Part shown: piece after piece, positions 1,388-49,668 of the stretch | Position numbering within the stretch: the stretch's first letter is position 1 | How the letters are laid out: each line of letters starts with the position of its first letter | Assembly: GCA_021781535.1 (NCBI GenBank) | Contig: JAJXWO010000003.1 | Span: 1-64,000, forward strand | DNA: 64,000 nucleotides | Reading direction: 5' to 3' | Source of the DNA: Deltaproteobacteria bacterium | GTDB taxonomy: Bacteria; Desulfobacterota; Desulfuromonadia; Geobacterales; Pseudopelobacteraceae | Notes under the pieces: model-generated | Seen by the model: the letters and a program-made list of their open reading frames with translations, nothing else | Told to the model about the DNA's origin: nothing | The model's database searches: none | Made by a program: the position numbers and the translations under genes

Positions 1388-1804
1388 ATGTTTAAAAAGA
1401 TCGTCCTGACTTTGGCACTAACCCTGATGTCCGTCACGCCCGTACTGGCAGCGAATTATATTGAGCCCCAGGAGCTGAAGGAGTTGCTGGATAAAAAGCA
1501 GCCGGTAATTCTGGTGGATATTCAGCCTGCAGCCGATTTCGAGAAACACCACCTGCCCGGTTCTATCGAAACCAACGCCTTCCCGGCCGTAAAAGATGAA
1601 GAAAAGGTCCGCCTGGACAAGACGGTGGCCGTTATCAAGGCTTCCAACGCACCGGTTGTCGTCCTCTGCCCTCGCGGTAAATCAGGCGCAAAAAACAGCT
1701 ACAACTACCTTGAATCAAAAGGGGTGCCTGAAGAGCGCATGCAGATTCTGGAGGATGGTATTGCCGGATGGCCCTACAAAGAGCTGTTCGTAACCGGACG
1801 CTAA
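1388..1804 (+). CDS. Secreted single-domain rhodanese-like protein
   Basis: A 138-residue protein with an N-terminal signal peptide (KK near the start, hydrophobic core, cleavage after VLA-A about residue 21), so it is exported. One rhodanese domain fills the rest. The catalytic loop is CPRGKSG near residue 97, with the Cys that would carry persulfide sulfur; DIQPAADFEKHHLPGSI is the usual CH2A-like segment. An AAAGGAG ribosome site precedes the ATG by 7 bp. The DUF3047 gene follows closely and is probably co-transcribed. It may handle sulfane sulfur in the periplasm; donor and acceptor are unknown. Confidence 0.88.
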   Translation: MFKKIVLTLALTLMSVTPVLAANYIEPQELKELLDKKQPVILVDIQPAADFEKHHLPGSIETNAFPAVKDEEKVRLDKTVAVIKASNAPVVVLCPRGKSGAKNSYNYLESKGVPEERMQILEDGIAGWPYKELFVTGR

Positions 1805-1842
1805 CCGGCACGGCTTTGAGACACAACCTGGTAAAGAAATAC

Positions 1843-2478
1843 ATGGTTGCATGCGTGTCGAGTGCTCTGCTGCTGACCTCCCTGCCGGCTTACTCCGACG
1901 GTATTGCCGTATCCCGCTTCGGATCTGAGGGGCTCAAGGGGTGGGTAAGCAAGAGTTTTAAAGGCACGACCGATTACCACATCGTGCAGGAGAATGGTCA
2001 CGCCGTCGTAAAAGCTCACGCCAGAGCGGCGGCATCCGGCTTGACGAAAAAGATACCATTCAGTCCGGTAACATATCGCTATCTGAAATGGAGCTGGAAA
2101 ATTGCCGCTACGGTAACAGGCGGCAATGAAAGGAGTAAAAAGGGAGATGATTACGCCGCGCGGGTTTATGTGATCTTTCCGGGCCGTTTCTTCTGGCAGA
2201 TGCGCGCTCTCAACTACACATGGGCCAACAAACTGCCGAAAGATGAATTCTTCGCCAACGCTTTTACCAGCAAAGCCATGATGATTGCCGTTGAATCAGG
2301 CTCATCACGAGCCGGAACGTGGGTTACCGAAGAGCGGGACATCCTGGCCGACTACCGCCGGGCCTTTGGCGAGGACCCGCCTGAGGCCGGCGCCATTGCG
2401 ATCATGACCGATACTGACAACACCGGAGGCGATGCAACCGCGTGGTACGGCGACATAACACTCTCAACGGTTCCGTGA
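1843..2478 (+). CDS. DUF3047 family exported protein
   Basis: The start at 1843 was chosen because it begins a plausible signal peptide (MVACVSSALLLTSLPAYS). The frame is open upstream to 1768, inside the rhodanese gene, and a TTG at 1816 would add a Lys-Lys n-region, so TTG 1816 is a real alternative. The mature part (about 190 residues) ends with the family-typical MTDTDNTGGDATAWYGDI segment and contains the YLKWSWK and DDYAARVYVIF motifs of DUF3047. The fold is presumably beta-rich. Family function is unknown. It lies 38 bp after the rhodanese gene, so the two periplasmic proteins are likely made together. Confidence 0.8.
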   Translation: MVACVSSALLLTSLPAYSDGIAVSRFGSEGLKGWVSKSFKGTTDYHIVQENGHAVVKAHARAAASGLTKKIPFSPVTYRYLKWSWKIAATVTGGNERSKKGDDYAARVYVIFPGRFFWQMRALNYTWANKLPKDEFFANAFTSKAMMIAVESGSSRAGTWVTEERDILADYRRAFGEDPPEAGAIAIMTDTDNTGGDATAWYGDITLSTVP

Positions 2479-4360: not shown

Positions 4361-4585
4361 GCTTCAGAGTAGCCTGTTTTTTTTATGATCGTACACGCCT
4401 GCAAGAAACATCGTCAAGGCGTTTTGTGGTTTTTTTTGATACTATGAATGTCCTTACGCTAAACGACCGTATGTTCTTACGAATTTAATGGAAACACATG
4501 CGGACTGTCTTTTTAAATGTGACCGCAGTATTTGCCAAACACATATGGACAATGATATATTCCAATACCAAGCACTTCGAAAAAA

Positions 4586-7500
4586 ATGAAAGATCACCAT
4601 CCAATGACTTTTGACCAGACCCGCTGGACCCGTCTGCCGGTTAACGGCACTGCAGTATGGATCTGCCCCGATCGCCCTTCCTGGTTTGTTCCTACTGTCG
4701 CCGGAGACCGGCTGCTGCAAGAGACATACAGCAGCGGGAAGCGCCATGCGCCTGCAGCGGAGCATGTTTTTCTGCAACGCCTCCCGGATCCTCCGGAAAG
4801 CAACTATACGGGCCGTGCATCTCTGATGACCGAGACTCCAGACCTGAGGGAATTGTGGCTACACATTACAGAGCGCTGCAACCTCGCCTGCTCCCATTGT
4901 CTGTTCTGTTCCGGTCCTGACGCGCTTCGCGATCTGTCCCTGAGCCTGCTCATGCGGCATCTTCATGATGCGGCAGCGCAGGGGTGCCTCAGATTTGCCC
5001 TGACCGGCGGCGAGCCATTGCTACACCCTGACTTCATCCCCCTGGTCAACCATATTCTGAGCATTCCCGCCAGTCGGATTGCCATTCTTTCCAACGGTCT
5101 GTTGCTGGAAAAACGTCTGCAACCGGACTGGCCACGAGAGAGGATTCACCTGCAGATCAGCCTGGACGGCAGACAGGAACATCACGACAGCCTGCGGGGC
5201 AAAGGCAGTTTTGAACAACTGGAGCACCAGTTGATCTGGCTGCGGCTGCAGGGGTGGCAGTTTACCCTCAGTTGCTGTGTAACCATCGACAATGCCGATG
5301 ATCTGGCCTGGCTGGTGGACTACGCTGCGGATCAGGGAGCTGTGTCACTCCACCTGATGTGGCATTTCATCCGCGGCAGGGGCAGTAAGGATCAGCACTC
5401 GGTACCGCTGGACCTGTTCGGCCCGGTACTGAAGGCCATGCAACGGGCTGAAGTACGTGGAATCACCATTGATAACATTGAAAGCTTGAAGGGGCAGATT
5501 TTTTCCCCTCCCGGCACGCTCCACGACGGCTCCAGCGCAGGATGGGAGGCGGCCGCCATTGGCCCGGATGGACGACTCTACCCCTCTGCCGCCACCATCG
5601 GCATTGAGGAGCTGGGCACCCCGCTGGATGACGGTCTCCTCGCGGCCTGGAGCCAGAGCCCGGTTTTATCCGACATCCGGCAGACCAGTGCGGCCGGCCT
5701 GGCCGCCCCCTGGCGGTATCTGTTGGGGGGCGGGGATCTCGACCACAGCTACCATCATCGCGGCACCTTCATCGGCAACGACCCTTACCAGCCCCTGCTG
5801 GAACAGCTGGCTCTGCATCTGATCACGCAAGCCGCACTCCGCCTGCCTGAACCGGACGGCCCCGCCCTGCGGCTGAAAATGGGTGAACTGCTGGCAAGCT
5901 GCGGTAGCCATGGTCCGGTAGCCGTCTGCCATACCAACTGCCTGCTGTCGCTGGACGAGACAGCAAACAGCCGCAACAGGATAGGCGCCTATTATGCCGC
6001 TGCTGCCGGTGACAAGCGGAGTGAGATTCTGAACCCGGTTCATTATGATGGCACCCTGATCGACCATATCCCGGCAGCATACCGCTTCCGCGGTTATGGC
6101 TGCGGCAGTCCGGTGATGGATGCTGAACCGGCTGCCGGAGAGCGGGTGGTTGACCTGGGCTGCGGTAGTGGAGTGGAATGCTTCATCGCCGCCCGGCTGG
6201 TTGGCGCACAGGGAAATGTTACCGGTATAGACATGCTGGAACCGATGCTGGAACTGGCACGCACGGGAGCTGTTGAGGTCAGACAGTCGTTAGGATACGA
6301 CAACATGCGCTTTTTGAAGGGGTTTCTTGAAGAGTTGCCGCTGCCGGATAACGATGCAAACCTCGTCGTCTCCAACTGCGTATTGAACCTGTCGAGCGAC
6401 AAACGCCTCACCTTCAGCGAAATTCTGCGCGTATTGGCGCCCGGTGGCCGTCTGGTGGCGGCGGATGTCGTTTGTGAGACCGAGCCGGACGCATCAATCC
6501 TGAATGACGAGACCTTGCGAGGTGAGTGCATCAGCGGCGCCATGACCCAGAAAGACCTTCTGGGAATAATGGAAGAAAGTGGCTTCATCACCTTCAGGGT
6601 ATTAAAACGGCTGCCCTACCGGGTTGTGAACGGCCATCCTTTTTTCTCCCTGACCTTTGTCGCCAACAAACCGGAGCACCCCGAATCTGCACGCGTCAGC
6701 GTATTCTACCCCGGACCGGCGAAAGCTCTGCTGACCCCTGGCGGGCAATGGCTCCGCCCTGGACAAACGTCCATGGTTACCCCACGCGATGCCGAGATCA
6801 TCGGTGACCAGCTCTGGCAGCTTGATGAGCAGGGGTTGGTTACGAACGTGGCCATTGCAACCGGGGCCAGTTGCTGCATCCCCCCTGAGGCCCAGAGTGC
6901 ACCGCCACCTGCACCGCCGCAGACGCCACACTCCGAGGGCTGTCTCGTCTGTGGCGCACCGCTCATTTACCACACTGTCGAACGGGAAAGCCTCTGCCAC
7001 TACTGCGGCAAACCTCTCCCAGCGAATGCCCGCTGCCGGGAAGGCCACTTCGTTTGTGACCGCTGCCATACCGGCACTGCCCGTGAGGTTATCGAGCACC
7101 TCTGCGCGACGACCGCAGCGATCGACCCGGTTACCCTCTTCAGGGAGATTCGGCAGCATCCGGCCATTCCGCTGCATGGCCCCCAGTATCATGCCCTGGT
7201 ACCGGGCGTACTGCTTGCCTGCCTGCGTAATACGGGGCATCCGATTACACAGGAGCAACTCAGATCCGCCATCCTGCGTGGCAGCGAAGTGAGCGGCGGC
7301 AGTTGCGGATTCATGGGAATCTGCGGCGCGGCGGCAGGAGTCGGTATCGCCTTCAGTGTCCTTCTGGAAGCCACCCCACTCAAAGCATCATCTCGCCAGA
7401 CCGTACAGAAAATCGTCCAAAAGGTGCTTGCAGAGATTGCCGGACACGAAGCAGCCCGCTGTTGCCAACGGGATTGCTGGATAGCTCTGCAGTGCGGCTT

Positions 7501-7615
7501 TACGATTGCTCGTGAATTGTGGGATCTTGACCTGCCACAGGTTGAACCATTCGCCTGCTCCCAGGTTTCACGCAACAAGGAATGCCTTGGGGTGAGCTGC
7601 CCGTTGTGGCCGTAG
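4586..7615 (+). CDS. Three-part fusion: radical SAM + ArsM-type methyltransferase + zinc-ribbon/DUF5714
   Basis: A 1009-residue protein. Residues 1-75 resemble a small PqqD-like N-terminal domain. Residues about 88-330 are radical SAM: CNLACSHC (Cys98, 102, 105) binds the 4Fe-4S cluster and GGEP (141-144) contacts SAM. Residues about 465-695 match arsenite methyltransferases: YGCGSP (Cys506), VVDLGCGSGVEC (521-532, Cys532), SNCVLNL (Cys598) and GECISGA (Cys648), the positions equivalent to the four conserved ArsM cysteines. Residues about 785-1005 hold a CxxC-CxxC ribbon (Cys786-827), then HGPQYHALVPG and GGSCGFMGICGAAAGVG of DUF5714. No strong ribosome site is visible; Met7 is an alternative start. 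Arsenic or another soft-metal/chalcogen substrate is inferred, not proven. Confidence 0.85.
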   Translation: MKDHHPMTFDQTRWTRLPVNGTAVWICPDRPSWFVPTVAGDRLLQETYSSGKRHAPAAEHVFLQRLPDPPESNYTGRASLMTETPDLRELWLHITERCNLACSHCLFCSGPDALRDLSLSLLMRHLHDAAAQGCLRFALTGGEPLLHPDFIPLVNHILSIPASRIAILSNGLLLEKRLQPDWPRERIHLQISLDGRQEHHDSLRGKGSFEQLEHQLIWLRLQGWQFTLSCCVTIDNADDLAWLVDYAADQGAVSLHLMWHFIRGRGSKDQHSVPLDLFGPVLKAMQRAEVRGITIDNIESLKGQIFSPPGTLHDGSSAGWEAAAIGPDGRLYPSAATIGIEELGTPLDDGLLAAWSQSPVLSDIRQTSAAGLAAPWRYLLGGGDLDHSYHHRGTFIGNDPYQPLLEQLALHLITQAALRLPEPDGPALRLKMGELLASCGSHGPVAVCHTNCLLSLDETANSRNRIGAYYAAAAGDKRSEILNPVHYDGTLIDHIPAAYRFRGYGCGSPVMDAEPAAGERVVDLGCGSGVECFIAARLVGAQGNVTGIDMLEPMLELARTGAVEVRQSLGYDNMRFLKGFLEELPLPDNDANLVVSNCVLNLSSDKRLTFSEILRVLAPGGRLVAADVVCETEPDASILNDETLRGECISGAMTQKDLLGIMEESGFITFRVLKRLPYRVVNGHPFFSLTFVANKPEHPESARVSVFYPGPAKALLTPGGQWLRPGQTSMVTPRDAEIIGDQLWQLDEQGLVTNVAIATGASCCIPPEAQSAPPPAPPQTPHSEGCLVCGAPLIYHTVERESLCHYCGKPLPANARCREGHFVCDRCHTGTAREVIEHLCATTAAIDPVTLFREIRQHPAIPLHGPQYHALVPGVLLACLRNTGHPITQEQLRSAILRGSEVSGGSCGFMGICGAAAGVGIAFSVLLEATPLKASSRQTVQKIVQKVLAEIAGHEAARCCQRDCWIALQCGFTIARELWDLDLPQVEPFACSQVSRNKECLGVSCPLWP

Positions 7616-7680: not shown

Positions 7681-9339
7681 ATGGTAAAACATCTTATAAT
7701 TGGCGGCGTTGCATCCGGCATGTCTGCTGCTGCACGACTGAGACGTCTTGACGAGAACGCGGAAATTATCGTTCTTGAGCGTGGAGGATATGTTTCGTAT
7801 GCAAACTGTGGCCTTCCCTACTATATCGGTGACGAGATCAGCGATCGTGATGAGCTTCTGCTGCAGACACCCGAATCATTCAAGCGGCGCTTCAATGTCG
7901 AGGTGCGGATACACAACGAAGCGGTTGCCATACATCCGGATGCGAAAACAGTAACCATAAAAAATATCCTTACCGGAGCTCAATATCAGGAAACCTACGA
8001 CACCCTGCTGCTGGCGCCCGGTGGCTCGCCGGTCAGGCCGACAATTCCCGGCTGTGAACATCCGGCGATAAAAACCCTCTGGACGATACCGGACACGGAT
8101 GAAATCAGGGAGATAGTTGACAGCGGCACCGTCAGCACCGCTCTGGTGGTTGGTGGGGGGTTTATCGGACTGGAGATGGCCGAAAATCTCCGGATCCGCG
8201 GCATACGCGTGGCACTGGTTGAGATGGCGCCACAGGTGATGAATGTCATTGACCCAGAAATGGCGGCTCTTGTGCATCGTGAGCTGCGAAAGAACAATAT
8301 CGAACTGTATCTGAACGAAACGGTGACCGGGTTTGAGCCGCTCTCCGGAGGAGGGGTACTGGCGCAACTTGGAAGCGGGACGCATCTTGAAGCGGATCTG
8401 GTGCTGCTCTCCATCGGTGTAAAACCGAATACCGGTTTTCTTGCCGATTCCGGCATTCAGCTTGGCGCCCGCGGGCATATAATCGTCGACAAGCATCTCC
8501 GGACAAACAAGCCCGACATTTACGCCGCCGGCGATGCCATTGAAGTCGTAAACCCGTTTACCGGCAAGAAAACCGCCGTGCCACTGGCAGGCCCGGCCAA
8601 CAAGCAGGGGCGAATCGCCGCTGACACCATCAATGGCATCACGACACGCTGCTATGCCAGCACTATGGGGACCGCCATTGCGAAAGTATTCGATCTGGCG
8701 GTCGGGGTGACCGGCGCTACCGAGAAGTTCTGCCGGGACGAAAGCATCCCGTATAAGAGTGTCATAACCCATTCGGGGCACCATGCCGGCTACTACCCCG
8801 GTGCGGCCATGCTCTCGTTCAAACTCCTCTTTTCCCCGGAAACCCGTCGTGTCCTCGGTGCCCAAGTCATCGGGAACGAAGGGGTGGATAAACGGATTGA
8901 CGTGATTGCAACGGCCATCAAGGGGAACATGACCGTAGATGACCTGACCGAGATCGAGCACGCCTACGCGCCACCCTATTCATCCGCCAAGGACCCGGTC
9001 AACATGATAGGATTTGTCGCACAGAACATCCTCGATGGACTCGTCCGGAGCATACCTTTTGACGGCGTCAAGCGTGCCGTTGATGAGGGGGCATTCCTCC
9101 TTGATGTGCGCTCACCCGATGAATTCATGACAGGTTCTATTCACGGGGCGGTCAACATACCGGTCGACATTCTGCGCCACAAGCTTTCCAGGCTGCCGCA
9201 TGACAAAACCATTCTGGTCTTCTGCAAGATCGGATTGCGCGGCTACATCGCCAGCCGCATTCTCACCGCATACGGTTTCACTAAATGTATCAATCTCTCC
9301 GGAGGATTGGATACATACAACGCTGTTTACGGTCTTTGA
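7681..9339 (+). CDS. CoA-disulfide/persulfide reductase-like flavoprotein with C-terminal rhodanese domain
   Basis: A 552-residue protein. The N-terminal FAD-binding GGVASGMSAAARLRR is followed by SYANCGLPYYIG, whose single redox Cys43 is diagnostic of the CoA-disulfide reductase/NADH oxidase/Npsr group. The NAD-binding segment is VVGGGFIGLEMAENL (about 160-175). A dimerisation domain follows, then a rhodanese domain from about residue 465 with catalytic Cys515 (FCKIGLRG). Fusions of this type (CoADR-Rhd) reduce CoA persulfide or polysulfide with NAD(P)H. A strong GGAGG ribosome site lies 5 bp upstream. It sits 65 bp after the radical SAM fusion and may be co-expressed with it. Confidence 0.9.
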   Translation: MVKHLIIGGVASGMSAAARLRRLDENAEIIVLERGGYVSYANCGLPYYIGDEISDRDELLLQTPESFKRRFNVEVRIHNEAVAIHPDAKTVTIKNILTGAQYQETYDTLLLAPGGSPVRPTIPGCEHPAIKTLWTIPDTDEIREIVDSGTVSTALVVGGGFIGLEMAENLRIRGIRVALVEMAPQVMNVIDPEMAALVHRELRKNNIELYLNETVTGFEPLSGGGVLAQLGSGTHLEADLVLLSIGVKPNTGFLADSGIQLGARGHIIVDKHLRTNKPDIYAAGDAIEVVNPFTGKKTAVPLAGPANKQGRIAADTINGITTRCYASTMGTAIAKVFDLAVGVTGATEKFCRDESIPYKSVITHSGHHAGYYPGAAMLSFKLLFSPETRRVLGAQVIGNEGVDKRIDVIATAIKGNMTVDDLTEIEHAYAPPYSSAKDPVNMIGFVAQNILDGLVRSIPFDGVKRAVDEGAFLLDVRSPDEFMTGSIHGAVNIPVDILRHKLSRLPHDKTILVFCKIGLRGYIASRILTAYGFTKCINLSGGLDTYNAVYGL

Positions 9340-28328: not shown

Positions 28329-31300
28329 CTAGTGCAGCCGCACCGAAACAACCCGTGATGCCCCCGGTTCTTCCATCGTGATGCCATAGAGCGTATCGGC
28401 TACCTGCATGGTGGCCTTATTATGGGTGATGATGATGAATTGCGATATTGCGCTCATCTCTCTGACCATCTCGTTAAAGCGACCGATATTGGCGTCATCC
28501 AGCGGCGCGTCGACCTCATCCAGCAGGCAGAATGGTGTCGGTTTGATCAGGAAGATCGAAAAAATCAGCGCTACGGCAGTCAGCGCCTTTTCACCTCCCG
28601 AAAGTAACGTCACATTCTGCAGCTTCTTGCCGGGAGGCTGCACAATTATATCGATGCCGGTTTCCAGCAGATTTTCTTCATCCGTGAGGTGCAGCTCGGC
28701 CCGGCCACCACAGAAAAGGCGCGGAAAGACCTCCTGAAATTTGGCATTGATCAGATTGTAGGTTTCCTGAAAACGCTGGCGGGTGGTGCGGTTGATACGC
28801 TGAATGGCCTGCTGCAGTCCGCGCAGCGATTCTTCCAGATCATCCCTCTGAGCGGTCAAAAAAGTGAAACGCTCCTCCATCCCGGCGCACTCCTCAATCG
28901 CCATCAGGTTAACCTCGCCCATTTCGTCCAACAGGCGCTGCAACTCTATCTGGCGAAGTTTTCCGGATGCTTCGTCAAATTCGGTTGATTCCAGTTTAGC
29001 CACAGCCTCAGGCATGGCAATGCGGCTCCGCTCCAGCAAAGACTGTTCCAGATGTTCGGCCTGCATGGTCAACGTCGAAAAGCGAAGATTAAGGTCGGCC
29101 TGCAACTGCCGAACAGCGTCATTCTCTTCGCGGACGCTTTTGAGACGTGCCTCGATCATATTCAAGGCGGCACCCGCTTCTTCAAAGCGCCCGCGTATAC
29201 CGGCCAACCGCCCCTCAGACTCCACCTGCTCCCGAACGAGACTTTCCAGGCGTTCTGTCGCGGCGCTCATCTCCGTCTGAAGCTGAAGCCTGGCAGCATT
29301 GCCGGATTCGATTTCCTGCCGGTCGGCTGCCATGCGGCGCACGATCTCTTCCGTCTGACGCTCCAGATCGGACAACGCACGCAAACCGGCGTCATGCTGT
29401 TCCTTGATGGTAGCCGTCTGCACCCGGATGGCAGTTACCTTTTCCCGGGCGGCGCTCAACAGCCCACGGCGCGCGTCAAGCTCCCCCTTCAAACGGAACG
29501 TTTCCTGTTCCAGCTCTTTTGAGGCATCGCCGGTCTGCACCAGTTGTTCCCCGGCCAGCTTCAACTCAGCCTCCAGAGCCGTCCGCTCCTCATCAAGATT
29601 TTCTGCTTCCAGGGCTTGAACTTCCAGCCGTTCCGCGATGCGAGCTTCTTCATCAACCGCCTGCTGGCGGTCTTTGAGCAGTCCGGTCAGCTTCAACTCG
29701 GCCTGATGCAGGTGCATTCCGCCACTCTTTACCCCATCGGCCACTTCCTGGCTCTGGCGGCGCAGATCATCGCGCTGCGTGCCGAGGGAGGCGGTTTCCT
29801 CTTCCAGCCGCGCCACCGCCAGCTCCAACTCTCTGATTTCGCGCTTCTTGTGAATCAATCCCTTTCCCACCTGTTCGCTCGACCCACCGCTGACGATCCC
29901 ACCTCGGGCAACCATATCTCCGGATCGAGTGACAAAACTCAACCCAGGGTGGTGACGGGCCAAACTGAGCGCCCCGCCAAGATCTTCAACCAGCATGACG
30001 CTGGTCAGCAAATTCCTGATCAATCCGGTAAAAGGGCCGTCAATCTGCACCAGTTCCATCAGAGGAGTGGTGCCTGTCACCATGGGTGCCACCGCCACAC
30101 ACTCCAAAGGCAGAGCAATCTCGGCCCGGCCAGCGTTTGTTGCTTTCAAAAATTCCAGCGACTCAATGGCATCCCGATCATTGGAACAGAGAAGGCACTG
30201 CAAGCGTTCCGCCAGAGCCGACTCTAACGCCGCTTCCAGTTCGGGTGGCACCTGGATGGCATCCGCCAGCACTCCGCCAAAGCGGGAGCTGCGGGTGGCA
30301 TCCTTCATCAGTGTACGGGCCCCGAGACCAAAACCGGCAAACTGGGCTTCCAGTTCTTTAAGTGAATGGAGACGTGACGAACTGCGATTTAATCCATCCC
30401 GGCTGGTCTGCCACCTCTTTTCAACCTCGGGAAGCCGCCGCTTCAGATCATCCTCCTGGCTGCGCAAAGAAGAAACATTTAGCAGCAACTCTTCCTGTTC
30501 CTTCTGACCGGCGGCAATTTCCTTCTCCAGCGTGACCGCACGCTGCCGCTGCTGTTCACGCCGCTCGCCCAACTGCATTGCTTCACGTCCATGGCGGTCG
30601 AGCCGTTCACGGAGCGTAACCAGGCGTTTCTGGGCGTTCTCGGAGCGGCTCCTGAACTGGGCTGCTTCGGCCAGAGCAGTGAAAAGTTCCCGGCGACGAC
30701 TCTCCAGATTCCGGCCCAACTCCTCTTCAGACTGCTGATGGCCAGCCAATGCTTCTTCGGAGCGCTCCAGTTCCACCTGCATCCCGGCAGCATCCACCTC
30801 GCTCGTGTTGCGCCGGAGTTCAAGCAACTCCCGTTGGGCGCCGCACTCCTTCAGCCGCAGATCAAGCTCGGCAGCTTCTGCTGCCAGCCGCGCCAGCCGC
30901 CCGTCAAGACCGGCCAATTCCTTGCGCTGGAATTCCAGCCCATTGCCGGTTGTATTGAACTCGCTCCTGACGCGAAAAATCTCTTCCTGGGCAACTGTCA
31001 GCTGTTTTTCAGCCTCCAGCAATGCCACACGCGCCTCCTCCGCCTGGGCTTCGCCCACGGCGGAAGCGGCAAAAACCTCACGGATACGTTCATTGAGCGC
31101 CACAAGTTCCCGTTCGGCTTCTCCCCGTTGCCGCCGGACTTCACAATAGTCCCGCGCGGTAAAGAGCAATTCAATTTCACGCAGTTCGTCACGATACTCT
31201 CTAAATTTCTCGGCTTTTTTTGCCTGGCGCTGCAACGACGCCAACTGCCGCCGGATCTCTCCCAGCACATCCGCCAGGCGGGCCAGATTCTGGCGGGTAC

Positions 31301-31856
31301 CTTCGATCTTTTTAAGAGCCAGCTGTTTCCGCGACTTGAATTTGGTGACTCCGGCCGCCTCTTCAATCAGAAAGCGGCGTTCCTCAGGACGCGAATGCAG
31401 TATCTGGCCGATCTTGCCCTGTTCAATAATCGAATAAGCCCGGGTACCGACACCGGTATCCATAAAGAGTTCGGTTATATCCAGCAGACGGCAGGGGGTC
31501 TTGTTGATCAGATAATCACTCTCACCATCGCGGTACAGACGGCGGGTCAGCTGGATTTCCGCATAATCCAGATACTTGGCCGGAGCACGGCCATCCTCGG
31601 TGGAGAACACCAGTGACACCTCAGCCATTCCCAATGGCTTGCGGTTATCACTGCCGACAAAGATTACATCCTCCATCGCTTTGCCGCGCAGGTTCTTGGC
31701 GGACTGTTCCCCCATGCACCAGCGGATCGCGTCGACGATGTTCGACTTGCCGCAGCCGTTCGGACCGACCACGCCGGTTACATTCTGCTGGAAGTCCAGC
31801 ACAACCTTGTCGGCAAATGATTTGAAACCTGATATTTCGAGTCGTTTGATTTTCAT
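28329..31856 (-). CDS. smc: Chromosome segregation protein SMC
   Basis: A full-length 1175-residue SMC ATPase. Walker A is GPNGCGKSNIVDAI near residue 32. Two long coiled-coil arms (about 170-500 and 670-1010) flank a hinge rich in Gly (FVTRSGDMVARGGIVSGG, about 650). The C-terminal half of the ATPase has LLSGGEKALTAVAL and CLLDEVDAPLDDAN. It forms the condensin ring with ScpA/ScpB, which are not in this window. Transcribed toward the OmpH-like gene (convergent). Confidence 0.96.
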   Translation of the reverse strand: MKIKRLEISGFKSFADKVVLDFQQNVTGVVGPNGCGKSNIVDAIRWCMGEQSAKNLRGKAMEDVIFVGSDNRKPLGMAEVSLVFSTEDGRAPAKYLDYAEIQLTRRLYRDGESDYLINKTPCRLLDITELFMDTGVGTRAYSIIEQGKIGQILHSRPEERRFLIEEAAGVTKFKSRKQLALKKIEGTRQNLARLADVLGEIRRQLASLQRQAKKAEKFREYRDELREIELLFTARDYCEVRRQRGEAERELVALNERIREVFAASAVGEAQAEEARVALLEAEKQLTVAQEEIFRVRSEFNTTGNGLEFQRKELAGLDGRLARLAAEAAELDLRLKECGAQRELLELRRNTSEVDAAGMQVELERSEEALAGHQQSEEELGRNLESRRRELFTALAEAAQFRSRSENAQKRLVTLRERLDRHGREAMQLGERREQQRQRAVTLEKEIAAGQKEQEELLLNVSSLRSQEDDLKRRLPEVEKRWQTSRDGLNRSSSRLHSLKELEAQFAGFGLGARTLMKDATRSSRFGGVLADAIQVPPELEAALESALAERLQCLLCSNDRDAIESLEFLKATNAGRAEIALPLECVAVAPMVTGTTPLMELVQIDGPFTGLIRNLLTSVMLVEDLGGALSLARHHPGLSFVTRSGDMVARGGIVSGGSSEQVGKGLIHKKREIRELELAVARLEEETASLGTQRDDLRRQSQEVADGVKSGGMHLHQAELKLTGLLKDRQQAVDEEARIAERLEVQALEAENLDEERTALEAELKLAGEQLVQTGDASKELEQETFRLKGELDARRGLLSAAREKVTAIRVQTATIKEQHDAGLRALSDLERQTEEIVRRMAADRQEIESGNAARLQLQTEMSAATERLESLVREQVESEGRLAGIRGRFEEAGAALNMIEARLKSVREENDAVRQLQADLNLRFSTLTMQAEHLEQSLLERSRIAMPEAVAKLESTEFDEASGKLRQIELQRLLDEMGEVNLMAIEECAGMEERFTFLTAQRDDLEESLRGLQQAIQRINRTTRQRFQETYNLINAKFQEVFPRLFCGGRAELHLTDEENLLETGIDIIVQPPGKKLQNVTLLSGGEKALTAVALIFSIFLIKPTPFCLLDEVDAPLDDANIGRFNEMVREMSAISQFIIITHNKATMQVADTLYGITMEEPGASRVVSVRLH

Positions 31857-42765: not shown

Positions 42766-45700
42766 TTAAACCGTACCCCCCACACCTTTAAACTTTTCAA
42801 CAAAAGCGACAATTTTTTGAAAAACGCTTTGTTTCTTGGTGAGGTACTGCGGATTAAGCGGGCTCATCTTTGGGAGAATCGCGTTTAACTCAGTACCGTT
42901 TTCACTGGCGAATTCTCGTTTTAGTGAAGCGGTGATATACCGTTTCGCAGCCTCTTCATTCAGGTTTTCATCAGTAATCAATATGACAACTTCACGCTGT
43001 TGTTCCGCCTGGGCATAAGCGAAGAAGGCATCTATGATGCTGGCTTTATCGCCAATCTGATCCAGGTCTGTTTGATTAATAAAATCAACCAGCAAGCTCT
43101 CTTTAGCGCGGTTGCCAAGGCTGGCGCGAATTACGCGGCGTACGTCTTCAACCAGTGCCGCTTTGTCCTTAATTTTCTTACTATTTTCAAAAATCAGTTC
43201 CAGAATGTAGTCCAGGTTGATCTCTTGTGACTTAAGCAGATCGACCTCAAAGACCACGTCATCCCAGTCAATAGTAGATTTTTCTTTTTCGTTGGCGGAT
43301 TTTTCGCGGCGCAGCCAGTCGCGAATATCGTTATAGGTTGAACGATAGTCCTGAATCTTACGCTCAGCAGGAAGCTTGATCGCTTGTAGCGTTACCAGAT
43401 CATCATCGTTTAGATAATGTTTGGCCTTAAATGCCTCAACCGTCGCAGGGTCGTTCATATCGACAGTTTGCAAGGCTTTCAGGCTGGCGAATTCATCGTA
43501 GTTTTGCAGCACGTTTTCAATGCGTAAATATTCACCAAATAATTTCGTAAACGCTTTTTTGTCGGATTCTTTAACAATCTCTTCCGGGTTGGGGAATCGC
43601 TTATTCAACTCCGTAACCACATCCATAAAGCCGCGCCGTGCCTCGCCGGTAACCAGATCGGTAAAGCCTTCCATGTATTCCTTATAGCTTTTTTCCAATA
43701 CCACGTTTTTGGTGTTTTTATCGCCAAACAGGGTAATGGCATCTATCGTGGCCTGCTCCAAATCGCGGAAAGTGACGATATTGCCAAAGGTTTTAGTAGC
43801 ATCGAAAATACGGTTGGTGCGCGAATAGGCCTGCATCAAGCCGTGATAACGCAGGTTTTTATCCACAAACAGGGTGTTCAGCGTGGGGGCATCAAAGCCG
43901 GTCAGAAACATACCCACCACAATCAGCAAATCAATTTCCTGATTCTTCACGCGCAATGCAAGATCGCGGTAGTAGTTTTGAAACGCATTACTATCCACGC
44001 TAAAGTTTGATTTAAACAGCGCGTTATAGTCAGCAATTGCCGCATTTAAAAACTCTTTGGCACTGCTGTCCATTGCAGAAACTTCAAAGCTTTCATCCGG
44101 AATATCGCCTAGAGCATCCTGTTCTTCATTGGCCGCAAAAGAGAAGATGGTGGCCACCTTTAGCGGCTTGTCACTCTCCTTTTGTAAACTTTTGAACGAT
44201 TCATAATACAGCTTGGCGGCATCAACACTGCTCACAGCGAACATGGCATTAAAGCCTTTGGCACCGGCTTGATGGCGATGGGTTTTTTGCCGGAAGTTAT
44301 TCAAGATGTACTGTGAAATCTCTCGAATACGATCAGGGTGCAACAAGGCTTGCTTATTTTCCGCCGCGCCCAGTTTTTTCTCGTCCTGCTCGCATTCAAT
44401 GGCTTTAAAGTGCGGGCGTACATCGTTGTAGTCCACCTTGAATTTGAGTACCTTTTCATCACGGATAGCGTCGGTAATGACATAGGAATGCAACTCACGA
44501 CCAAACACGCTGGCCGTGGTTTCAGCACCCAAGGCGTTTTGAGGAAAGATAGGCGTACCGGTAAAGCCAAACTGATAAAACTTTTTGAACTTCTTCTTCA
44601 GGTTCTTCTGCGCTTCACCAAATTGGCTGCGGTGGCATTCATCAAAAATAAAAACCACCTGCTTGTGGTAAATCGTCAAGTCGCTTTCACTTTTCATCAG
44701 GTTGTTGAGCTTCTGGATAGTGGTGACAATGATTTTGTTGTCATCTTTATCCAGATTGCGCTTGAGCCCGGCGGTGCTGTCAGAGCCGTTGACACTATCC
44801 GGCGAAAAGCGCTGGTACTCTTTCATGGTCTGGTAATCCAGATCTTTACGATCCACCACGAAGAACACCTTATCGATAAAATCCAGCTCAGTCGTCAAAC
44901 GCGCTGCCTTAAAACTGGTCAAGGTCTTACCAGAACCGGTAGTGTGCCAGATATAGCCACCACTTTCCGTATTGTTCCAGTTTTTGGCTTGATAAGCGCA
45001 ATTTATTTTCCACAAAATGCGCTCGGTGGCGGCAATCTGGTAAGGACGCATCACCAGCAGCGTATTGCTGACATCAAATACCGAATAATGCAGCAGCACA
45101 TTGAGCAGGGTATTTTTCTGGAAAAAGGTGGCAGTAAAGTCTTTCAGGTCTTTAATCAGGTTGTTGTCGGACTTCGCCCAGTTCATGGTGAAATCGAAAC
45201 TATTTTTGTTGCGCTGAGTGGTATTGGCAAAATACCGGCTGTCGGTGCCGTTGGAGATCACGAAAATTTGCAGATATTTAAACAGGGAATTCTCGCTGTT
45301 ATAACTCTCTTTGCTGTAACGATGCACCTGATTAAAGGCTTCACGAATCGCCACACCGCGCTTTTTCAGCTCGATCTGCACCAGCGGCAAGCCATTGACC
45401 AAAATTGTGACATCGTAGCGGTTGGCATGGCTGCCGGTTTGTTCAAACTGCCTGATAACCTGACACTTATTGCGGGCAATGTTCTTTTTGTCCAGCAGGT
45501 AGATGTTCTGAATATGGCCATCATCAAAGACAAAATCGTGGATATAGTCATCATGAATTTTGCGGGTTTTATCGACAATGCTATCACTGGGCTTATCCAG
45601 CCAGGTTTCCATAAATCGCAGCCACTCGCCGTCTAAAAACTGCATAGTATTCAGGGATTGAAGCTGCTCACGCACATTGGCCAGCATAGCCTCAGTGTTA

Positions 45701-45864
45701 TTTAAATCGGTAAGATATTCATAGCCCTGATTAACCAAGTCCTGAATAAATTCCCGCTCCAAATCGTATTCGCTTTGGTAGGTTTCACAGACCAGCCAAT
45801 CGCGGGTGTATTTGTCTAACACGATGAAGTTGTTCGACTCTGCGATGGTTTTATAGTCGGTCAT
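42766..45864 (-). CDS. hsdR: Type I restriction enzyme, HsdR subunit
   Basis: 1032 residues. N-terminal nuclease domain with the PD-(D/E)xK core [13 protein letters not shown] (about 170). Helicase motor: [16 protein letters not shown] (Walker A), [13 protein letters not shown] (DEAD-like DECH), FGFTGTPIF, and YSRTNRIFD in the second RecA lobe. The C-terminal helical domain binds the methylase core. It cuts DNA away from the site after ATP-driven translocation. Last gene of the hsd operon, starting just after hsdS. Lower GC than neighbours suggests transfer. Confidence 0.95.
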
Positions 45865-45866
45865 TG

Positions 45867-46988
45867 TTATGCCTCCTGCCGTGGAAAGGTAAGGAGCAAA
45901 TCGCGGTAATATTCATACTGCTTTTGGCGCAATTCAATTTCGCGCGGCAAACCCTCGGTGATTGAGTTGGTGAGTGCGTCGAATTTATCCAGGATGGCGA
46001 CGATGCGGGCTTGTTCAGCGAGGGGAGGAACTGGGATCTTGTATGATTCAAATTCCTTTGCACGGACATGAGGAACGCCTGCTCCTTTTCCCATGTTGTG
46101 TATTTTGGTCTGATCATTTTTTAACATATAATAAAGGAATTTACTGCTAAGCACTTTATTGTTGGGATGAATGCTGAACGCATCAGTCAGAAAAATAGGT
46201 TTGTTCCAGTAGCTTACAAGCCCTGCATATGCCCCAGACCTAGCAATAACGATTGTTTCTCCACTTCTATTGCTTTTGTCATGGTAATAGTTGTGACTGG
46301 GGCCATTTGCAACGACGGGGAATTCCCCCGGATTTGTTTCCTTTTCTGTGATTGCTGTGCCTCGGAGAATTTCCCCAACTTCCCCCAGCGTCTTCCACTC
46401 CACGTCCCCTTCTTCAAAACTCAACAACTGGTCGCGGTAGTAGGTGTATTGTTTTTTGCGGGCTGTAAGCTCGGCTGTAAGCTCGGCTGTAAGCTCGGTG
46501 AAGGTGTCCAGAATGCGGATGATTTCGGTTTGAATCTCAATCGATTTTTTGGGGTTTTCTGGGCAGGGGATGGGGATTTGAAAGGCCTCTAGGGTAGACA
46601 ACACGATATATGTCATCGCCGCACTGTTCGTTCTTTCCTCTAGATATTTCTTTAGGTCATTGCAAAGTACAAAATATAAAAATCTAACGTCTATATATTT
46701 TTCAAAACTTGTTAGTACATAAGTGCGTTGATAAGCTTCAAACTTGCCTATGTAATGCTTCACTTCGCCAACATTTGCATTTCCAGCAATCAGCAATGCC
46801 TCCGTGTCCCAACGGTATTTATTAATTCGGCTAGTCTCTTTGGCGGTAGTGAAAAACATAAATTCACCACCCTCAACCGCTGCATTCGCATTAAGTTTCC
46901 CCGTTTCAATTTTGCAGACGTCCCCTAGCGACTTCCACTCCACCGCAATCCCATCAAGCAGTTTCACCATAAAACTCAGACCACTCAT
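45867..46988 (-). CDS. hsdS: Type I restriction-modification specificity subunit HsdS
   Basis: 373 residues with two target-recognition domains (about 15-150 and 195-330), each followed by a conserved helix (ILDTFTEL... and [14 protein letters not shown]). The central helix carries a triple ELTA repeat (about 165-176) whose length should set the gap between the two half-sites. Each half begins with EWKSLG/EWKTLG, so the two halves look internally duplicated. Start overlaps the KilA-N gene by 4 bp; Met7 (46970) is an alternative. With HsdM and HsdR it forms the IC-type complex. Confidence 0.93.
46461..46496 (-). repeat. Three perfect 12-bp tandem repeats in the hsdS linker
   Basis: GGCTGTAAGCTC is repeated three times without a mismatch (46461-46472, 46473-46484, 46485-46496). 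On the coding strand each unit encodes Glu-Leu-Thr-Ala. Unit gain or loss keeps the frame and changes the spacing between recognition domains. Confidence 0.95.
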
Positions 46989-47815
46989 GCTTCACTACCC
47001 TGCAATTTTTTAACGCCCAGGTCATCGGTAAGTAAACGCATTTGCTGAATAGCGGTACGGTTCAATAGCCGTATTCTTTCTGATTGCGGCAGATCCTGTT
47101 GTATCAAATGAGCATTCAGGTTTTCAAGATTTGCAAGACACACCAGTTGTGTAACATTGCAATAATCCCTAATGTTCCCTTTTTGAGAAGGGTTTTCATC
47201 GCGCCACAGCTTGGCTGTCTTTCCAAATAGCGCCATATTCAGCAGATCAGCTTCTGAAGCATAGACAAGATGTATCTGTTGCTTGCTTAATTCAACAGGA
47301 ATCAGATTTTCTTTGATGGCATCAGTGTGAATTCGATAATTGATTTTGGTGAGTTGACGTTTTACATCCCACCCAAGCTGTTTCTGTTCTTCTTCTTTGA
47401 GTCGTTGGAACTCTTTTATGAGATAAAATTTCAGTTCAGGAGAAATCCATGTAGCAAATTCAAAAGCAATATCTTTGTGAGCGTAAGTACCTCCATATCG
47501 ACCTGCCTTGGAAATAATTCCAATGGCATTTGTTTTTTCAATCCATTGCTTGGCAGAGAGGACAAAGCCATTGCTGCCGCTTTCATTTTTAATGTAACTG
47601 AATTCCGTTAGATTAAAACTTGGGTTGTTCACTCGTTCCCAAATTCCTATAAACTCAATAGTGTAGCGGGTGCTCATCCAGTGAGAAATTACAACGCCTG
47701 TATGCTCGGCATTTTTATGTTTTGCCAAATCAGTCAGCGAGATATAATCTTCCTCCCCCTTGCTAAACAAGGTGACATCACTGCCTATGATTTCAATTTT
47801 CGTGTTTTTATCCAT
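46985..47815 (-). CDS. KilA-N-domain protein within the hsd operon
   Basis: 276 residues. N-terminal two-thirds match the KilA-N DNA-binding fold of phage and mobile elements: YISLTDLAKHKN, IEFIGIWERVNNPSFN and GGTYAHKDIAFEFATWISPELKFYLIKEFQRL (residues about 105-140). The C-terminal part is helical with no recognised domain. It sits between hsdM and hsdS and overlaps hsdS by 4 bp, so it is co-translated. It may regulate the system or act as an extra defence component; its role is unknown. Confidence 0.85.
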   Translation of the reverse strand: MDKNTKIEIIGSDVTLFSKGEEDYISLTDLAKHKNAEHTGVVISHWMSTRYTIEFIGIWERVNNPSFNLTEFSYIKNESGSNGFVLSAKQWIEKTNAIGIISKAGRYGGTYAHKDIAFEFATWISPELKFYLIKEFQRLKEEEQKQLGWDVKRQLTKINYRIHTDAIKENLIPVELSKQQIHLVYASEADLLNMALFGKTAKLWRDENPSQKGNIRDYCNVTQLVCLANLENLNAHLIQQDLPQSERIRLLNRTAIQQMRLLTDDLGVKKLQGSEA

Positions 47816-47851
47816 TACGCAATCTCCCCCAAACTCTTTTACTCCACCTCA

Positions 47852-48115
47852 TTAGTCCAAATTGTAGTAATCCACCTGATAGACTTTTTCGTCAGCGGCA
47901 GTTGTTGCAAAATTTGCAACAACTGCATCGCGCTGTAATTCACCTTCCTCAAACAGGTTTTTTATGTGGCGGGAAATGGTGGACTTGTCGCGTTCAAACA
48001 GCTCTGCCATCTGATCGAGAGAAAGCCACGCTGTTTCTGCATCAAAATGAGCATTGACGGATATTTTTCCATCGGCCGACGTGAAAATGATCAGATGCTT
48101 CTTTTCATCGCTCAT
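47852..48115 (-). pseudogene. RhuM-family remnant, truncated after 87 residues
   Basis: 87 residues matching only the N-terminus of RhuM family proteins (about 330 residues): ETAWLSLDQMAELFERDKST, ISRHIKNLFEEGELQ and the DYYNLD segment, where the family normally goes on with a 'VGYRVN' core. Here a stop codon (TAG) follows NLD and no continuation is found in another frame before the KilA-N start 36 bp on. It starts 2 bp after the hsdM stop. It may still encode a short winged-helix DNA-binding peptide. Confidence 0.75.
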
Positions 48116-48117
48116 GA

Positions 48118-49668
48118 CTACAGTTCCTCGCCTTCAATCTCAGCCACAATCGCATCAATATCCTTACGCAGCTGATCGATTTTAGCCACCGTGGTTTTCA
48201 GTTCGGCATTGAGCGCCGTGATATCCACCACTTCACGGGTGTCTTTGGCCTCCACATATGAGCTTACGGAGAGGTTGTAGCCGTTTTTGGCTATGGCATC
48301 GAAATCAATTGATTTCGCAAAATGGTCACTATCCTTCTTGCTGTCGAACGCCTCCATGATCCGGTCGATATGCTTGTCGGTGAGTACGTTGGTATTAGTC
48401 TCTTTTTTAAACAGCCCACTGGCATCAATAAACTGGGTTTTGGTGTCGGTTTTGTGTTTGGAGAGTACCAGGATATTGACGGCGATGGTGGTGCCAAAAA
48501 ACAGGTTGGGCGCAAGCGAGATCACTGTTTCAACGAAGTTGTTATCGATCAGATACTGGCGGATTTTCTGTTCCGCGCCGCCACGGTAGAAGATGCCAGG
48601 GAAACAGACAATGGCCGCGCGCCCTTTGCTGGAAAGGTAACTGAGCGCGTGCAGCACAAAGGCAAAATCGGCTTTGGATTTGGGTGCTAACACGCCAGCC
48701 GGGGCAAAGCGGTCATCATTGATGAGTGTGGGGTCATCGCTGCCGACCCAGTTCACCGAATAGGGTGGGTTAGAGACGATGGCATCAAAGGGTTTTTCAT
48801 CGCCGAAATGGGGATCTAACAGGGTATTCCCCAAAGCAATATCAAACTTGTCGTAGTTGATGTTATGTAAAAACATGTTCATACGGGCAAGGTTGTAGGT
48901 GGTGTGGTTGATCTCCTGACCGAAAAAGCCGTCTTCAATAATGTGGGCGTCAAAGTGCTTTTTGGCTTGCAGCAGCAAGGAACCTGAACCACAGGCCGGG
49001 TCATAAATCTTATTGACGCTGGTTTGCTTGTGCATGGCCAGTTGTGCAATCAACTTGGAAACGTGCTGCGGAGTGAAAAACTCGCCACCGGATTTACCGG
49101 CATTGGCGGCATAGTTGGAGATGAGAAATTCGTAGGCATCGCCGAAGAGATCGATCTTGTTATCCTGAAAATCTCCGAAGTTCAGCCCTGCCACACCTTT
49201 CAGAACCGCCGCCAGACGGCTGTTTTTGTCTTTGACGGAGTTGCCGAGCCGGTTACTGGTGGTGTCGAAATCGGCAAAAAGTCCTTTAATATCGTGTTCG
49301 GATGGATAGCCGCTTGCGGAGCTTTCGATGGCGGAGAAGATCTTAGCCAAATCGGTGTTCAGGTTTTCGTTGTCGTTGGCATTTTTGGCCACATTTGAAA
49401 AAAGCTGGCTTGGGGAGATAAAATAGCCTTTGGTTCTGACCGCATCGTCTTTTATTTCCGGGGTGATAACACTGTCTTTGAGGGCAGCATAGTTGACGCT
49501 ATCATCACCGGCTTCGATGTAGATGGAGAAGTTTTCGCTGATAAAGCGGTAGAACAGCGAGCCTAAAACGAATTGTTTGAAATCCCATCCATCAACGGAG
49601 CCGCGGACATCGTTGGCTATTTTCCAGATTTGGGCTCGCAGCTCGGCTCGTTGTTGGCTACTCGTCAT
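48118..49668 (-). CDS. hsdM: Type I restriction-modification methylase HsdM
   Basis: 516 residues. N-terminal helical domain (about 1-140), then an N6-adenine methylase: [13 protein letters not shown] (SAM-binding motif I) and NPPYSVNW (catalytic motif IV). C-terminal helices ([21 protein letters not shown]) contact HsdS. It methylates adenine in the bipartite site and protects host DNA. First gene of the operon, with about 210 bp of upstream DNA; an autogenous promoter is likely but not obvious. Confidence 0.95.

Follow-up and report, generated by a model that had tools for sequence, protein, structure and literature searches.

Can one polypeptide do the work of the two enzymes, ArsM and ArsS, that start arsenosugar-type biosynthesis? 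The question arises from a gene in the first 64,000 nucleotides of contig JAJXWO010000003.1 (assembly GCA_021781535.1; hereafter the window) of a deltaproteobacterium of the Pseudopelobacteraceae, where a single open frame of 1009 codons on the forward strand (4586-7615) fuses a radical S-adenosylmethionine (SAM) enzyme, an ArsM-like methyltransferase and a DUF5714 domain. We find that the domain order and a set of cysteines of this fusion are conserved, that the fusion and ArsS show mutual exclusion among genomes, and that the two share gene neighbours. We consider it reasonably likely that the fusion is a separately evolved one-chain replacement of the ArsM and ArsS pair.

Domain order and conserved cysteines of the fusion

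A sequence-only reading of the locus had described a 1009-residue fusion of these three parts with a zinc-ribbon/DUF5714 tail, and this description is borne out. Pfam assigns Radical_SAM to residues 94-239, the class I methyltransferase family Methyltransf_31 to residues 517-666 and DUF5714 to residues 836-1008. The search for the same domain order elsewhere, which that reading had proposed, yielded orthologues in many genomes, and because these have an identical order the frame is a genuine protein, neither a chance frame nor an assembly join. Its start may lie at 4604, since several homologues begin at a Met equivalent to residue 7. Conservation was scored in an alignment of 38 rows (20 from the window or named genomes and 18 from a phylum sample, G256 and G198 being left out), 36 of which reach the zinc ribbon and DUF5714.

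The radical SAM core (residues 94-239, PF04055; 4865-5302) carries a complete CX3CX2C motif, as had been noticed from the sequence: Cys98, Cys102 and Cys105 (4877-4900) are invariant in 38/38 rows. Residues 12-420 share the overall fold of radical SAM maturases of the SPASM type that act on ribosomally synthesized and post-translationally modified peptides (RiPPs), namely CteB, anSMEcpe, SuiB and SkfB, and the C-terminal part of the module (residues 255-470; 5348-5995) is likewise SPASM-maturase-like. SPASM auxiliary Fe-S (iron-sulfur) clusters go with a seven-cysteine motif. In the fusion these clusters seem to have been lost, as Cys439 and Cys452 are the sole invariant cysteines between residues 106 and 470 (38/38 rows). 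The module had also been called ArsS-type, a label that homology does not uphold. The ArsS model TIGR04167 scores 46.5 bits, where its cut-off asks for 300, and covers positions 6-148 only, and the profile alignment with ArsS (hhalign) is limited to a 141-column core. The invariant C-terminal cysteines of ArsS fall outside this alignment, and the Cys-rich C-terminal half of ArsS has no counterpart in the fusion.

The middle domain (residues 484-697; 6035-6676) has an ArsM fold. Among proteins of solved structure it is closest to ArsM and AS3MT, and the best NCBIfam match is the arsenite methyltransferase NF008823 (E 1.7e-55), followed by the arsinothricin ArsM model (E 2.3e-44). These matches support its membership in the ArsM superfamily, although the NF008823 score of 188.4 bits stays below the curated cut-off of 263, so that the earlier assignment to ArsM holds for fold and kinship but not by score. 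All four cysteines expected of arsenite methyltransferases had been claimed for this domain. In HMMER alignments to 4kw7/4fr0, Cys506, Cys598 and Cys648 align on CmArsM Cys72, Cys174 and Cys224, and three of the four are thereby recovered. Cys532, however, falls on Val98 (a position counted from the printed HMMER alignment), and therefore the fourth cysteine named earlier is not Cys44. Between residues 452 and 506 the fusion has no cysteine, hence no Cys44 equivalent, whereas an unfused ArsM from this genus (L051, genome G010) bears two N-terminal cysteines as a pair at that site. Cys506, 532, 598 and 648 are all invariant in 38/38 rows, Cys532 as an extra invariant cysteine.

Conserved thiols are found in the tail as well. 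After a stretch of residues 698-785 (6677-6940), whose Cys763 is kept in 34/36 rows, comes a zinc-ribbon-like region (residues 786-828; 6941-7069) with seven cysteines (786, 789, 804, 807, 817, 824 and 827) and two histidines (821 and 828) invariant in 36/36 rows. DUF5714 (PF18978, residues 836-1008; 7091-7609) is matched with 192.8 bits (gathering cut-off 26.2); its Cys907, 913, 959, 960, 991, 1000 and 1005 are invariant in all 36 rows, and Cys840 is kept in 34. The nearest NCBIfam model of the tail is that of the double selenoprotein MbdU (NF045648; residues 780-1007, E 2.6e-39, 135.4 bits, cut-off 600), which the accessible part of a review (PMC13188914) traces to a 2025 paper with a 2023 forerunner. 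We found no solved structural relative of DUF5714. Its comparison with C_GCAxxG_C_C (PF09719) by hhalign gives a probability of 16% (E 0.0015, 96 columns), and 10% with a second alignment. Genes of the latter family directly adjoin ArsS genes in two relatives (G006:C15:71531-71911 and G009:C34:2122-2502) and might correspond to DUF5714 as a separate protein. At another locus (L100:1465-3514) a DUF5714 gene that stands alone adjoins one for a radical SAM protein, which carries a zinc ribbon of the HMPTM type.

Occurrence of the fusion and of ArsS

Among 58 near relatives, the window's own genome included, 10 have the fusion in full or in part (G000, G006, G011, G013, G016, G021, G024, G026, G027 and G029); in G021, G024 and G026 single contigs held only parts of it. 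G011 has two copies (C38 and C13), both with about 70% identity to the window protein. Named genomes, when scanned, contributed 24 loci, comprising whole or partial fusions (L021-L042), a further fragment belonging to one of these (L043) and a DUF5714 alone (L044); the hosts include Geobacteraceae, Desulfuromonadaceae, Desulfobacteraceae, Desulfobulbaceae and Desulfogranum japonicum. In a sample of 297 genomes of the phylum, which overlaps the near relatives in a few genomes including the window's own, 23 genomes of 15 families carry the fusion. These were counted with a profile of residues 255-470 at E < 1e-50; at E 1e-6 there are 26 matches, and G082, G087 and G130 were dropped. DUF5714 is present in all 23, in the same open frame in 20. 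Identity to the window protein goes down to 41% among the named loci and 38% among the phylum rows; the fusion is old.

ArsS is distributed in a complementary manner. It exceeds its cut-off in 46/58 relatives, that is in 45 of the 48 without the fusion and in one of the 10 with it (G006). Among 13 further named fusion genomes ArsS was found over cut-off once (G066), and the genome with DUF5714 alone is without it. In the phylum sample none of the 23 fusion genomes has ArsS, compared to 86 of the 274 others (6.7 expected, hypergeometric P 2.7e-4), where 86 is the count at E 1e-60 and 85 exceed the curated cut-off. The independent units in this sample, too, are families rather than genomes. Of the families, 15 have the fusion and 46 have ArsS, and both occur only in the window's own family.

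Within the genus kinship has to be considered, which a Fisher test among the relatives ignores. We used a marker tree of one gene, encoding a 1175-residue SMC-like protein (28329-31856 in the window), from 30 relatives; the fusion-bearing G024 lies outside this tree, the bootstrap of which had not converged. Mapped on this tree, the state of having the fusion without ArsS requires four changes, equal to the number forced by well-supported branches. Near neighbours are of opposite state, such as G009 and G016, G005 and G011 with G021, and, with less support, G018 and G000 with G026 and G029. Fusion and ArsS were therefore probably exchanged several times; statistics free of kinship are weak within the genus, and the evidence for exclusion is stronger at the level of the phylum.

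Genes around the fusion and around ArsS

We then compared the neighbours of 23 fusion loci with those of 20 ArsS loci, chosen from the 46 relatives with ArsS over cut-off; the ArsS frame was recovered as one cluster in 17 of the 20. Since many fusion loci stop at contig ends, the counts are lower bounds. VTT-domain proteins are found in 7/23 fusion and 13/20 ArsS loci, a cluster uniting DUF3047 and Fe-S proteins in 10/23 and 12/20, TIGR04283/TIGR04282-type proteins in 5/23 and 11/20, a mercuric-reductase-like disulfide oxidoreductase in 2/23 and 10/20, and MsrA and MsrB each in 2/23 and 3/20. The fusion loci thus share with ArsS both the neighbourhood and the pathway partners. At L103:2647-4950 a VTT domain is itself joined to the disulfide oxidoreductase in one gene, which adjoins that of the fusion.

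In L023, L026, L027, L028 and L039 the TIGR04283-type neighbour and the fusion share bases at the fusion's 3' end, provided that the neighbour's frame is read from its first possible start. Both TIGR04283 and TIGR04282 exceed their NCBIfam cut-offs in L026, as they do in four distant loci (L104, L114, L117 and L118). Across the phylum sample TIGR04282 occurs in 20/23 fusion genomes and 80/86 ArsS genomes, compared to 31/188 with neither, and in 8/23 fusion genomes it lies at most 10 kb from the fusion (G111, G140, G146, G225, G278, G285, G297 and G358). In the window's own genome neither adjoins the fusion: TIGR04283 is on contig C18, next to a VTT gene, and TIGR04282 is found on C84 and C123. 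Fatty-acid-hydroxylase genes (OlsE-like, under cut-off) lie near the fusion in two loci (L029:7130-7963 and L118:9632-10426); together with the glycosyltransferases they might point to an arsenolipid. Elsewhere a pair resembling the 2-hydroxyglutaryl-CoA dehydratase D-component and the BcrAD/BadFG ATPase lies 5' of the fusion (L024:1679-3744 and L022:5412-7490).

In the window itself a DUF3047 protein (1768-2478, forward strand), with homologues in ArsS loci, and a rhodanese-like protein (1388-1804, forward) lie upstream of the fusion, preceded by a LysR regulator on the reverse strand (376-1266). The latter matches the NCBIfam model named 'selenium metabolism-associated' with 255.5 bits (cut-off 250). 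The LysR cluster recurs in 8/23 fusion and 2/20 ArsS loci and the rhodanese cluster in 8/23 and 0/20. Downstream, 65 bases 3' of the fusion, a CoA-disulfide-reductase-like protein with a rhodanese domain is encoded (7681-9339, forward), as it is downstream in L021, L029 and L037. A promoter-like site, TTGCCA-18-TATATT (4532-4561, forward), just 5' of the fusion is a consensus match only, and across the region there are 5 such sites versus 2.6 in shuffles. Farther away, at about 42766-49668 on the reverse strand, a run of large open frames resembles, by its translations, a type I restriction-modification locus.

Proposed function and comparison with known systems

ArsM and ArsS-like work in one chain had been suggested from the sequence. 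Homology to ArsS does not back this, but it gains comparative support from the way fusion and ArsS exclude each other and from the arsenosugar-pathway neighbours that they have in common. Radical SAM enzymes adenosylate arsenic (arsenosugar) or transfer an aminocarboxypropyl group to it (arsinothricin), as stated in the accessible parts of PMC12159101 and PMC8552651, the latter also describing that in Synechocystis SsArsS works together with SsArsM. Taken together, this literature and the replacement pattern favour, over other functions, a fusion that first methylates arsenic and then adenosylates it by radical chemistry, both within a single protein. As(III) would be bound via Cys506, Cys598 and Cys648 of the methyltransferase domain and methylated with SAM to mono- and dimethylarsenite, and the methylated arsenic would reach the radical SAM module without leaving the chain. 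There the [4Fe-4S] cluster at Cys98/102/105 would cleave another SAM molecule, yielding a 5'-deoxyadenosyl radical that would make the C-As bond as in ArsS. Cys439 and Cys452, in a SPASM-like fold otherwise stripped of cluster cysteines, may bind arsenic as a dithiolate, and the zinc ribbon and DUF5714 thiols may maintain trivalent arsenic or pass it on. TIGR04283 and TIGR04282 enzymes, adjoining or elsewhere in the genome, would then convert the adenosyl product to an arsenosugar. We infer arsenic as the substrate, and likewise every reaction, the channelling and the role of DUF5714.

Several points weigh against such a replacement. The radical SAM module is no ArsS orthologue and resembles the peptide-modifying type, and the Cys44 equivalent is missing. 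G006 and G066 hold both fusion and ArsS, and an independent-pairs test among the relatives has only three well-supported pairs, in 2.7 of which on average ArsS absence tracks the fusion (p 0.25). TIGR04282 occurs in 31/188 genomes with neither enzyme and is missing from 3/23 fusion genomes; at the window locus there is no glycosyltransferase neighbour, these genes sitting on other contigs; the TIGR04283 match of the own genome is barely over its cut-off (185.6 versus 182 bits); and the 'arsenosugar' names of both families are annotations. The upstream LysR regulator is named for selenium metabolism. Only 11 of the 45 relatives that have ArsS but no fusion show a stand-alone ArsM of at least 140 bits; as most ArsS-bearing relatives are without a recognisable ArsM, ArsS may here not always act on methylated arsenic. 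By contrast, among the matches listed a separate ArsM of at least 100 bits was found in none of the 10 fusion relatives.

These points leave some room for other functions. It is unlikely that the element handled is selenium (or a different thiophile, for example antimony or tellurium) rather than arsenic and that the fusion makes an organoselenium compound. The LysR match, MbdU as the nearest model of the DUF5714 region and the selenoproteins (TGA codons) among ArsS family members would fit selenium, but the three arsenic-binding ArsM cysteines are invariant in every row, and selenoproteins alone, with no selenium substrate, may account for the tie of such loci to selenium. Slightly less probable still is arsinothricin-type chemistry as in ArsL, which likewise has a single CX3CX2C cluster and an ArsM partner according to the accessible part of PMC8552651. 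The arsinothricin ArsM model is indeed the second NCBIfam match of the fusion; its neighbours and phyletic pattern, however, track the arsenosugar enzymes, no search having been aimed at ArsQ or ArsL.

We give similarly little credence to a radical SAM module that still modifies a peptide or other organic substrate, with the ArsM-like part methylating the product and the link to ArsS loci reflecting a shared redox or lipid setting. The likeness to SPASM maturases would agree with this, but the seeming loss of the SPASM clusters argues against it and the exclusion with ArsS would be left unexplained; the neighbouring frames considered here were those of 70 codons or more, with no systematic search for precursor peptides. 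Plain arsenic detoxification to volatile or exported methylarsenicals, the other domains giving electrons or binding metal, appears the most doubtful; ArsM fold and cysteines and the redox neighbours are in line with it, but a radical SAM motif invariant in all rows would be without use.

We therefore retain the one-chain replacement of ArsM and ArsS. More tentatively, the fusion could be an organoarsenical synthase of an origin independent of ArsS, in which a SPASM-type module minus its auxiliary clusters, ArsM and a thiol-rich DUF5714 make methyl-As and adenosyl-As bonds without release of trivalent arsenic, and which was repeatedly swapped for ArsS in arsenosugar-type loci of the phylum. 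In the literature searched, which did not cover subscription papers, we found no fused ArsM/radical SAM enzyme among the matches listed (the 2025 MbdU paper and its 2023 forerunner also lying outside), no mention of DUF5714 or TIGR04283, and no paper uniting arsenosugar, biosynthesis and Geobacter. If the replacement is true, radical SAM C-As bond formation arose a further time, out of another lineage of radical SAM enzymes. Arsenosugar-type products would then be expected from anaerobes without ArsS (Geobacter relatives and others of the phylum), and annotation via ArsS alone would overlook part of the makers. DUF5714 gains a testable role, and the fusion offers a single protein in which to study toxic-metalloid transfer between two SAM enzymes.

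Compared with known systems, the fusion is like ArsM (CmArsM, NF008823) in fold, core sequence and the equivalents of Cys72/174/224, but has no Cys44 equivalent, stays under the curated cut-off and sets the methyltransferase between two other domains. With ArsS (TIGR04167) it shares the CX3CX2C motif, core fold, gene neighbours and complementary occurrence, whereas the C-terminal half of ArsS with its invariant cysteines is missing and the alignment is core-only (46.5 versus 300 bits). The SPASM/RiPP maturases CteB, anSMEcpe, SuiB and SkfB have the overall fold of residues 12-420; unlike them the fusion keeps no candidate auxiliary-cluster cysteines save Cys439/452 and is joined to ArsM. MbdU (NF045648) resembles the zinc ribbon and DUF5714 region (residues 780-1007) at 135 bits versus a cut-off of 600, and leaves the radical SAM and ArsM parts unmatched. 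The ArsM selenoprotein fusions NF041536, NF041537 and NF047649 (accessible part of PMC13188914) also join ArsM to a further thiol/selenol domain, but their partners, judged by name, are DUF2284, AhpD and UXPK-star. ArsRM of Brevundimonas, in the accessible part of PMC10190100, is a known bifunctional ArsM protein whose partner, by its name, is an ArsR regulator and not a radical SAM enzyme.

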